64,000 bases of DNA from Pseudolabrys sp. (GTDB lineage Bacteria > Pseudomonadota > Alphaproteobacteria > Rhizobiales > Xanthobacteraceae), in assembly GCA_022843325.1 (NCBI GenBank), contig JALHNV010000006.1:20593-84592 (forward strand). The letters are read 5' to 3'. How positions within the stretch are numbered: the stretch's first letter is position 1; each line of letters begins with the position of its first letter. Below the pieces are notes generated by a model. That model ran no database searches. It was not told where the DNA came from and saw nothing but the letters and a program-made list of their open reading frames with translations. Below, in pieces: positions 20,057 to 45,199 of the stretch. The position numbers and the translations under genes were made by a program.

Positions 20057-20371
20057 TTAGAGGGGGCGGGGCTTGCGCTCCGGGGCTTGGTCGGGCGGGG
20101 CGGCTGCCTCGGTATGGGCATCCCCTCGTGTGCCGGCGGGTTCGGCCGGTTCTTCCAGCGGACCGGGCTTGAGCGCCGGCACAAGCGGAAAACGGCAGCC
20201 GGTATGCCGCTGCATCAACATCTGAATTGGGAACGGCCAACGCTCGTCCACGACCCCGGCGCCTTTTCTTGTTATGGGCTTATGCGGGGAGAACGCGCGA
20301 ACGCAGCGATAAGTTCCATCGCTGCCGAGCGATTGTGCAGCATCCGAGCGCGGGCTGTTTCCTCCGCTCAT
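20057..20371 (-). CDS. Hypothetical protein (uncertain)
   Basis: Open frame directly upstream of the transglutaminase gene, ...MLMQRHTGCRFPLVPALKPGPLEEPAEPAGTRGDAHTEAAAPPDQAPERKPRPL; its 5' part overlaps a repeat so only the C-terminal part may be real. Confidence 0.3.
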   Translation of the reverse strand: MSGGNSPRSDAAQSLGSDGTYRCVRAFSPHKPITRKGAGVVDERWPFPIQMLMQRHTGCRFPLVPALKPGPLEEPAEPAGTRGDAHTEAAAPPDQAPERKPRPL

Positions 20372-20451
20372 TCCCGCGCAAGCGGGAATCCAGAGCCGCG
20401 GGTTCGGAGGTTTACGCCCCTAGGTCCCCGCTTTCGCGGGGACGAGCGGGG
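20365..20451. repeat. Palindromic repeat, TTCCCGCGCAAGCGGGAATCCAG...TAGGTCCCCGCTTTCGCGGGGACGAGCGGG family, copy 1
   Basis: Two hairpins (TTCCCGC GCAA GCGGGAA; GTCCCCGC TTTC GCGGGGAC) separated by ~30 nt; related copy at 40960-41055. Confidence 0.8.
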
Positions 20452-32358: not shown

Positions 32359-35300
32359 ATGTCCGACCCCAAAACACCGAAAACCGAACGCGATTACTCC
32401 GAAACGCTGTTCCTGCCGCAGACGGAATTCCCGATGCGCGCCGGCCTGCCGCAGAAGGAGCCCGAACTGCTGAAGCGCTGGCAGGAGAGCGATCTCTACG
32501 GCCAGTTGCGCGCCGCGTCCAAGGGCCGCGAGAAGTTCGTGCTGCACGACGGCCCGCCTTACGCCAACGGCAATATCCATATCGGCCACGCGCTCAACAA
32601 GATCCTCAAGGACGTGGTGACGCGCAGCCAGCAGATGCTCGGCTATGACTCGAACTACGTGCCGGGCTGGGACTGCCACGGCCTGCCGATCGAGTGGAAG
32701 ATCGAGGAAGAGAACTACCGCTCCAAGAACAAGGCCAAGCCGAACTTCTCCGATCCGGCGGCGATGGTGGCGTTCCGGCAGGAATGCCGTGCCTATGCGC
32801 AGAAGTGGCTGGACGTGCAGCGCGACGAGTTCAAGCGGCTCGGCGTCGAGGGTGACTGGGACCATCCTTATACGACGATGAGCTTCCCGGCCGAGGCGCA
32901 GATCGCGCGCGAGCTGATGAAGTTCGCTGCCAACGGCCTTTTGTATCGCGGCTCGAAGCCGGTGATGTGGAGCGTGGTCGAAAAGACCGCGCTGGCTGAG
33001 GCGGAGATCGAGTACGAGGACTACACCAGCGATACGGTGTGGGTGAAGTTTCCGGTTAAGTTGTCCAACGGCGGTGCAACAGACTCCGTCATGCCCGGGC
33101 TTGACCCGGGCATCCACGACTTGCTGCGTAACAAAGACGTGGATGGCCGGGACAAGCCCGGCCATGACGGTGTGGCGAGCGTCGTCATCTGGACGACGAC
33201 ACCGTGGACCCTGCCGGGCAACCGCGCCGTCTCATTCTCGCCAAAGGTCGAATACGGCCTCTACAAGGTCACCGATGCGCCGCCCGAAAACTGGGCGAAG
33301 GTCGGCGAACATTACATCCTGTCGAAGAATCTGGCCGGGGAGGTGTTCAAGCAGGCTAAGGTCGCGGCCTACGATCTGATCCAGGACGTCTCCGCCGGCG
33401 CGCTGACTGCGATGACGCTGCGTCATCCGCTCCACGGACGCGGGTACGACTTCGACGTGCCTTTGCTCCCCGGGGATCACGTCACCGACGACGCCGGCAC
33501 CGGCTTCGTCCACACCGCGCCCGGCCACGGCCGCGAGGACTTCGAGGTCTGGACCGCGCATGCGCGCGCCCTTGAAGCACGCGGCATCAACCCCGCCATC
33601 CCCTATACCGTCGACGAGAACGGCGCGCTGACCGAGGCTGCGCCCGGTTTCACCGGCAAGCGCGTCATCAACGACAAGGGCGAGAAGGGCGACGCCAACG
33701 ACGCCGTCATCAAGGCGCTGGCGGAAGCCGGCAATATCATCGCGCGCGGCCGCCTCAAGCATCAGTATCCGCATTCGTGGCGCTCGAAGAAGCCGATCAT
33801 CTTCCGCAACACGCCGCAGTGGTTCATCGCCATGGACAAGGATGTCGATACGTCCGGCGACACGCTGCGGGCGCGGGCGCTGCAGGCGATCTCCGTCACG
33901 CGCTGGGTGCCGGAGCAGGGCCAGAACCGCATCACCGGCATGATCGAAGGCCGCCCCGACTGGGTGATCTCGCGGCAGCGCGCCTGGGGCGTGCCGATCG
34001 CCGTGTTCATCAAGGAAAAGCCGGACGGCTCGGTCGAAATCCTGCAGGACCTGGAGGTCGAGCGCCGCATCCTCGAGGCTTTCGAGCAGGAAGGCGCCGA
34101 CGCCTGGTATGCCGACGGCGCGCGCGAGCGCTTCCTTGGGCCAAAGCTCGCCAGCGAGACCTGGAAGAAAGTCGACGACATCTGCGATGTCTGGTTCGAT
34201 TCCGGCTCGACGCACGCCTTCGTGCTCGAAGACCCGGTGCACTTCCCGCAGCTTGCCGGCATCAAGCGCAAGGCGGTCGGCGGCGCCGATACCGTGATGT
34301 ATCTGGAAGGCTCCGACCAGCACCGCGGCTGGTTTCATTCTTCGCTGCTGGAGAGCTGCGGCACGCGCGGCCGCGCGCCCTTCGACGTGGTGCTGACGCA
34401 CGGCTTCGTGCTCGACGAGCAGGGCCGCAAGATGTCGAAGTCGACCGGCAACGTCACCGCGCCGCAGGACGTCATCAAGCAGTCCGGCGCCGACATCCTG
34501 CGCATGTGGGTCTGCGCTTCCGATTATGCCGACGACCTTCGCATCGGACCGGAAATTCTCAAGACCACCGCCGATACCTATCGCAAGCTGCGCAACACGC
34601 TGCGCTGGATGCTGGGTACGCTCAGCCATTTCCGCGAGGAGGATCGCGTCAAGTTCGAGCGCATGCCCGAGCTCGAGCGGCTGATGCTGCACCGGCTGTC
34701 CGAACTCGACACCCTGGTGCGGCAGGCTTATGCCGATTTCGACTACAAGCGCATCTTCGCGGCGCTGTCGGCCTTCATGACGTCGGACCTGTCGGCGTTC
34801 TATTTCGACATCCGCAAGGACGCGCTGTATTGCGATCCCTATTCGTCAGTCACGCGCAAGGCGTGTCTGACGGTGGTCGATCATCTGTTCCGCTGCACCG
34901 TGGTGTGGCTGGCGCCGATGCTCTGTTTCACCGCGGAAGAGAGCTGGGCGGCCCGCTACGGCGCCGATGCCAAGTCGGTGCATCTCGAACAGTTTCCGGA
35001 ATTGCCGGCGGCATGGCGCGACGACAGACTGGCCGAGAAGTGGCGCAAGGTGCGCACGGTGCGCCGCGTGGTCACCGGCGCGCTGGAGATCGAGCGGGCG
35101 CAGAAGCGCATCGGTTCGTCGCTGGAGGCGCATCCGATCGTCCATGTCTCCAATCAGGAACTGTTCGAGGCGGTGGTCGATATCGATCTCGCGGAAATCT
35201 GTATCACGTCGGCGGCGACGCTGGTGGAAGACGAGGGGCCGGCGAATGCGTTCCGGGCGCCGGACGTCAACGGCGTCGCGGTGGTGCCGAACCTTGCCGA

Positions 35301-35430
35301 GGGCACCAAGTGCGCGCGGTCGTGGAAGATCCTCACCAATATCGGCGCCGACCCCGCCTACCCGGACGTCTCGCCGCGCGACGCCAAGGCGTTGCGCGAA
35401 TGGGAATCCCTGCGCAAGGCGGCGGAGTGA
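32359..35430 (+). CDS. ileS: Isoleucyl-tRNA synthetase, with in-frame palindromic element
   Basis: [61 protein letters not shown]; extra peptide [30 protein letters not shown] before [10 protein letters not shown]. Confidence 0.97.
33086..33172. repeat. ~88-bp nested palindromic element, copy 1, inside ileS
   Basis: cgtcATGCCCGGGcttgaCCCGGGCATCCACGacttgctgcgtaacaaagaCGTGGATGGCCGGGacaagCCCGGCCATGACgg; outer stem CATCCACG/CGTGGATG and two arm hairpins; near-identical architecture at 43443 and 45098. Confidence 0.9.
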
Positions 35431-40955: not shown

Positions 40956-40959
40956 CACC

Positions 40960-41055
40960 GCTCGTTCCCGCGCAAGCGGGGACCCAGATCGATATCACAT
41001 TCGATCGTGATCGTGATCTTGGCCCTGGATTCCCGCTTGCGCGGGTTTGAGCGGG
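40960..41055. repeat. Palindromic repeat GTTCCCGCGCAAGCGGGGACCCAG...CTGGATTCCCGCTTGCGCGGG, copy 2
   Basis: Arms homologous to 20365-20451; internal segment differs (gatcgatatcacattcgatcgtgatcgtgatc). Confidence 0.8.
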
Positions 41056-43439: not shown

Positions 43440-43442
43440 TTG

Positions 43443-43530
43443 TCATGGCCGGGCTTGTCCCGGCCATCCCGCTGAGGGACGTACTGTGACCACCTGAGCG
43501 GGATGCGCGGGTCAAGCCCGCGCATGACAG
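43443..43530. repeat. ~88-bp nested palindromic element, copy 3 (between convergent mutL and rsmD)
   Basis: GTCATGGCCGGGCTTGTCCCGGCCATCCCGCTgagggacgtactgtgaccacctgAGCGGGATGCGCGGGTCAAGCCCGCGCATGAC; outer stem CATCCCGCT/AGCGGGATG differs from copy 1 but still pairs. Confidence 0.9.
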
Positions 43531-45083: not shown

Positions 45084-45097
45084 TCCGGCCTATCGGC

Positions 45098-45185
45098 GTC
45101 ATGGCCGGGTTGATCCCGGCCATCCACGACTTGCTGCGGGACCGTGTATAAAGACGTGGATGCCCGGCACAAGGCCGGGCACGAC
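45098..45185. repeat. ~88-bp nested palindromic element, copy 2 (between divergent rluB and tadA)
   Basis: GTCATGGCCGGGTTGATCCCGGCCATCCACGACTTGCTGCGggaccgtgtataaaGACGTGGATGCCCGGCACAAGGCCGGGCACGAC. Confidence 0.9.
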
Positions 45186-45199
45186 GAATAGCGGACACC

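Follow-up and report, generated by a model that had tools for sequence, protein, structure and literature searches.

A CGTC-tagged REP dimer within the reading frame of ileS in a Pseudolabrys-like genome

The ileS gene of a Pseudolabrys-like Xanthobacteraceae genome (hereafter G000, 94% complete) contains a palindromic repeat in its reading frame, which raises the questions of what this repeat is, whether it becomes part of the isoleucine–tRNA ligase (IleRS) and how it came to occupy a conserved gene. The locus lies in a window of 64,000 nucleotides, the whole stretch of DNA that was analysed (Table 1), and was compared with a genus sample of 43 genomes that includes 39 congeners whose ileS can be read. 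The original prediction of an in-frame palindrome was correct, although the extent proposed for it (33086-33172, ~88 bp) was slightly too long, the repeat covering 83 bp (33087-33169). The gene was also expected to cross the repeat without a stop, and its 1023 codons indeed form one ORF (32359-35430).

Table 1. Coordinates of ileS, of the repeat within it and of related features; positions are those of the window, except in the last three lines, where locus names are given.
Feature	Position	Strand	Remarks
ileS, isoleucine–tRNA ligase	32359..35430	+	1023 aa; one intact frame across the repeat
Head-to-head dimer of CGTC-tagged REP units, in frame in ileS	33087..33169	+	83 bp; nested palindrome
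REP unit 1	33087..33116	+	CGTC tag, 9-bp stem ATGCCCGGG/CCCGGGCAT, 5-nt loop CTTGA, CCA tail
Spacer between REP units	33117..33139	+	23 nt; elsewhere only in the G306 ileS copy (43 genus genomes)
REP unit 2, opposite orientation	33140..33169	-	stem ATGGCCGGG/CCCGGCCAT, loop ACAAG, GACG end
IWTTTPWTL codons, conserved, first strand of the CP1 editing domain	33187..33213	+	directly downstream of the insert
Intergenic REP dimer, CGTC(TGTC)-tagged	43441..43529	+	89 bp; relative of the ileS repeat
Intergenic REP dimer, ileS-repeat subtype	45097..45186	+	90 bp; relative of the ileS repeat
IleRS linker with SPSPRARGEG...SPQAGRGDLADAS, Rhodoplanes elegans	L058/L155		
IleRS linker with SPSPRARGEG...SPQAGRGDLADAS, Rhodopseudomonas faecalis	L080/L206		
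IleRS linker with SPSPRARGEG...SPQAGRGDLADAS, G046	L299		

The product is recognised as IleRS by the TIGR00392 ileS equivalog model (791.9 bits, cut-off 621.4, in a profile search of the 1023-aa product). Both catalytic motifs are intact, HIGH (residues 74-77) upstream of the insert and KMSKS (691-695) downstream, and the residues that are invariant in 38 relatives are all kept, including TTT 279-281, H385, H390 and D394 in the editing domain; the conserved residues behind the insert begin at residue 277. The codon signal is equally strong on either flank of the repeat. Since a single frame carries essential motifs on either side of the insert, the latter is probably translated as part of IleRS. 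An assembly artefact, or an ileS gene in decay, is hardly credible as an explanation of this arrangement: G000 is a draft of 137 contigs and repeats do cause misjoins, but ileS is in frame on both flanks of the repeat and the same arrangement occurs in the independently assembled G306 (MAG: Pseudolabrys sp., JAURVZ010000051.1, an 80% complete bin), which has the repeat in the same ileS linker, while decay is at odds with the intact catalytic motifs and with the single match that a genus-wide ileS query finds in G000. An AlphaFold model of the whole enzyme, with a mean pLDDT of 67 from a shallow alignment and a pLDDT below 50 over most of the insert, is overall too weak to place the insert.

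CGTC-tagged REPs have been described as units that carry a CGTC, TGTC or CCTC tag outside the stem, a stem of 8-9 bp beginning with AT, a loop of 4-5 nt and a CCA tail, and that form head-to-head dimers (Di Nocera et al., 2013; PMC3733652). The ileS repeat is a head-to-head dimer of such units and bears all of these structural marks: both units have a 9-bp stem beginning with AT, a loop of 5 nt and a CCA tail, and the tag stands outside the stem, as CGTC at 33087-33090 and as GACG at 33166-33169. It folds with -65.4 kcal/mol, whereas shuffled sequences reach -36.0 +/- 3.5 (z = -8.4), and its half-site patterns have two and four matches in the window, where none was expected (at most three mismatches). 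At the protein level, IleRS residues 244-270 are fully coded by the repeat and residues 243 and 271 partly, the peptide ending in ...DKPGHDG; no Pfam or NCBIfam model matches the 30-aa repeat peptide. With regard to the marks of a MITE, the repeat has inverted ends, but no clear target-site duplication can be assigned, given that the linker differs in sequence from one relative to the next. The window also contains a second palindromic repeat, CCGCTCATTCCCGCGCAAGCGGGAATCCAGAG, in three copies (20364-20397, 40958-40988 and 41021-41054), two of which form an inverted pair. The Rfam microRNA models mir-5882, mir-789 and MIR8565 have full-length matches to the repeats at 33087-33169 and 40958-41054 that fall short of the curated score; a microRNA reading of these sub-threshold matches was rejected in favour of mere hairpin resemblance, and the three Rfam entries may merit a check for bacterial contamination.

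Relatives of the repeat had been predicted in intergenic DNA near 43443 and 45098, and both are present there (Table 1). The whole of G000 contains 75-76 CGTC-REP loci among those fetched, nearly all outside supported coding frames, and 43 of 75 are head-to-head dimers, so that the genome shows the habit of CGTC-tagged REPs, namely many copies, mainly intergenic and mostly in head-to-head dimers. The nearest other copy in G000 differs from the ileS repeat by nine edits. The genome search for in-frame copies that had been proposed, carried out here as a codon-usage test on every open frame crossing a repeat, left ileS as the sole G000 locus (1/75) with coding signal on both sides. In G306, the codon-usage test placed 2 of 64 repeat loci in supported coding frames, ileS and the gene of a GT87-family membrane protein; in the latter (L338:627-1997:-), the CGTC REP dimer is in frame and the Pfam domain runs through the repeat. 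Rarity caused by the chance of an open frame was considered and rejected: 46 of 47 dimers have a stop-free frame in at least one of the six, commonly in two or three, and therefore stop-free passage is easy once a repeat lies within a gene, the rarity being one of tolerance. The Y1 transposase domain (Y1_Tnp, PF01797) has no match in G000 (94% complete) or G306 (80% complete), and one match in the related genome G292. The lack of a match in the two carriers is in line with the report that CGTC-tagged REPs, which are mostly intergenic, have no dedicated transposase (PMC3733652). Beyond the genus, no further case of a CGTC REP in IleRS was found in 396 further genomes sampled at order level and 384 at class level (about 780 in total, the two samples overlapping by a few genomes); a candidate in the class-level genome G864 turned out to be a false pattern match.

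The insertion had been predicted to lie in the linker that enters the CP1 domain before WTTTPWT, and the site does align there, between residues 220 and 228 of the solved bacterial IleRS 8c9e, which has a seven-residue stretch at this place. Alignment with close relatives revealed both the gap of about 30 residues and the empty site that were anticipated: six congeners (G143, G034, G070, G111, G264 and G322) have 13 residues between WVKF and VVIW (for example PVTNGTGDVAKAS), where G000 has 43; their linker is short, about 11 residues, and the IleRS of G000 shows a net gain of 30 residues (90 bp). The closest empty-site match reads ...NGTGD/VAKAS, as compared with ...NGGATD[repeat]GVAS in G000. 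The residues coded by the repeat occur in no other linker seen save that of G306, and therefore they are not shared by repeat-free lineages. The linker is hypervariable: the 207 loci fetched, which include some redundancy, have 134 distinct versions, 12-59 residues long, of which the 88 longer ones fall into 56 sequence groups. Recognisably related linkers are found across genera (L222 of G252 with L096 of G097, and L236 of G280 with L097 of G341), the linkers of near relatives being unrelated. In G292 (L248) and G240 (L139), the linker, together with some 300 bp of CP1 following IWTTTPWT, is 55-67% identical to G000, as against nearly 90% in most other ileS sequence, which suggests that the linker and the start of CP1 were replaced in these genomes by recombination, as if from another lineage.

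Our preferred reading, to which we give a probability of about 85%, is that a non-autonomous CGTC-REP dimer was inserted in the hypervariable linker between the catalytic domain and CP1 and is translated as a tolerated neutral loop. The dimer would have reached the linker as a copy, through the process by which such repeats spread, and the 90 bp would have been gained in a stop-free phase, so that ileS stayed intact. IleRS would thereby carry about 29 extra residues as a flexible, exposed loop leading into the editing domain, which it would tolerate because the linker is without conserved sequence or length, and the repeat, most likely of no benefit, would survive because its insertion site is neutral. 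Insertion rather than another route of copying, the translation and exposure of the loop and the neutrality of the repeat are what we infer here.

The second carrier bears directly on this neutrality. The G000 and G306 copies share 79 of 83 nucleotides; unit 1 differs in G306 by the paired change C9G/G23C, which keeps the stem and results in P246R and G251R, and the remaining differences are two bases, both in the spacer. Within the repeat there is one synonymous change over 18.7 synonymous sites, compared with 41% of synonymous sites differing in the rest of ileS (dS 0.60). From these sequence comparisons, the two repeat copies appear to postdate the divergence of the genes around them, and so little synonymous drift implies a recent origin of the copies, a transfer, or a constraint on the DNA or RNA. 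This drift is less than expected of an old neutral passenger and counts against the neutral account. It could instead speak for a useful insert, whether as an mRNA hairpin at which ribosomes slow down between the domains or as a charged loop that adjusts tRNA binding, editing or the response to inhibitors, as could the great stability of the hairpin, the preservation of the stem in G306 at the cost of two residue changes and the presence of two repeat families in this linker. However, paired stem changes are the usual variation among intergenic copies as well, linkers of similar length and unrelated sequence serve elsewhere, and only 2 of the 39 congeners with a readable ileS (G000 and G306) have the repeat, which the nearest relative G292 lacks. 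Therefore, we regard a useful insert as improbable and retain the tolerated neutral loop.

How the two ileS genes came to share the repeat is a separate matter. In the ileS tree, G000 branches with G292, its closest relative, and G306 branches with G264, G240, G092, G225 and G268, a G000+G306 clade being rejected by the AU test (p ~1e-5). Simple common descent of both ileS copies is weakened by this test together with the synonymous comparison, and a simple transfer of a gene segment received no support from sliding identity. The DNA immediately left and right of the repeat differs between G000 and G306, and similarity is not raised in the neighbouring 150-bp windows on either side of it; among the histories considered, we lean towards parallel insertion or a short transfer. 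The doubtful alternative is one ancient insertion inherited by both Pseudolabrys species, followed by several losses through replacement of the linker segment. It would account for the 23-nt spacer, which was not found outside the two ileS copies in the 43 genus genomes (at most three mismatches), and the replaced CP1 start of G292 and G240 offers a parallel for such losses, but it needs at least three of them on the tree, it conflicts with the rejection of G000 and G306 as sisters, and the repeat has diverged at synonymous sites far less than the gene has. Somewhat the likelier history is that near-identical young copies were inserted in parallel, or that a short linker segment was transferred between the two species after their split, as this agrees with the near-identity of the copies despite the divergence of the gene, with the differing flanks directly beside the repeat, with the separate placement of the two carriers, and with the presence of another repeat family in the same linker in three other genera. 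Nevertheless, a source copy with this spacer is found in neither genome (G306 being only 80% complete), and the ordinary similarity of the flanking windows marks no transfer tract.

This other family is found in IleRS linkers of 46-59 residues of the type SPSPRARGEG...DLSPQAGRGDLADAS, in Rhodoplanes elegans and Rhodopseudomonas faecalis, which are named strains and not metagenome bins, and in G046 (Table 1). The DNA of these linkers consists of CCCTCTCCCCGC..GCGGGGAGAGG hairpins, which number 64 to 180 per genome in those three genomes, and among the 392 genomes of the family the GGGGAGAGG-type repeat is in the IleRS linker of three, a low frequency, as is that of the CGTC REP, which is in the linker of G000 and G306. 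It resembles the CGTC REP of ileS in being multi-copy and in frame in the same linker, and differs from it in its unrelated sequence and longer insert. The CP1-entry linker as a repeat hotspot is a lead, short of a result: we tentatively suggest that it may be a preferred port where unrelated palindromic repeats (CGTC REPs, the GGGGAGAGG type, and possibly RPE-7 of Rickettsia) repeatedly become protein, its extreme variability partly recording repeats that have decayed or been replaced. What makes this locus interesting is that two repeat families occupy one linker; together with the near-identical copies in two species, this makes the choice of targets and protein innovation from repeats directly testable. 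In practical terms, the ...DKPGHDG peptide will recur in annotation pipelines and protein databases, where knowledge of its origin averts false domain calls.

Compared with known systems, the ileS repeat shares with the CGTC families of PMC3733652 its tag, stem, loop, tail, dimer form, mainly intergenic habit and want of a transposase, in a host genus outside the coverage of that work. In the same article, REPs of the CGTC and GTAG types are described within genes, tRNA synthetase genes of X. oryzae and of the sphingomonads Erythrobacter litoralis and Sphingopyxis alaskensis among them; in the two sphingomonads, CGTC REPs are in frame in the synthetases. Its authors suggest that REPs within genes may be tolerated in linkers and loops. 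Within the same family of bacteria, the Br-REP1 and Br-REP2 elements of Bradyrhizobium are likewise palindromic repeats of intergenic DNA and 3' UTRs (PMC5082802), although of other sequences.

The likeness to the Rickettsia palindromic elements that was originally proposed holds, the superfamily being that of the CGTC-tagged REPs, with whose families RPE-4 and RPE-6 have been equated (PMC3733652); RPE-4, RPE-6 and RPE-7 have been argued to share an origin, and RPE-7 (144 bp) is listed in the isoleucyl-tRNA synthetase RJP_0691 of spotted-fever Rickettsia (PMC3767692, Table 1 therein). These three elements are palindromes of about 30-50 codons in frame at exposed sites of conserved, often essential proteins (PMC3767692); the place of the ileS linker in solved homologues would fit such a site away from the active centre, and the ATGAC motif is common to the Rickettsia elements and the ileS repeat. 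The ileS repeat likewise lies in frame in a conserved protein and leaves the frame unbroken. In contrast, each Rickettsia genome contains many insertions, which are old, being present in all orthologues at the same sites, whereas frequent occurrence in coding genes of the same genome is seen neither in G000, with its one supported coding insertion, nor in G306, with its two, and few congeners carry the ileS repeat. RPE-1 is also a protein-coding palindrome in frame in genes, and an RPE-1-tagged guanylate kinase is reported to be translated and active (Ogata et al., 2000; PMC2229807); it is longer (105-146 bp) and stands outside the CGTC families counted in PMC3733652. The claim that no such case had been described for a synthetase of Hyphomicrobiales is uncontradicted in the literature searched; elsewhere, in-frame elements have already been reported in tRNA synthetases, including Rickettsia IleRS. 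We did not find an earlier description of the repeat in this genus and gene position. The phenomenon thus has precedents in Rickettsia and in some further bacteria, and the ileS case is a further example, showing outside Rickettsia, in soil and water Alphaproteobacteria, how intergenic repeats become protein sequence of an essential enzyme; what is new, in comparison, are the near-identical copies in two non-sister species, the double residue change that preserves the stem and the second repeat family in the linker.
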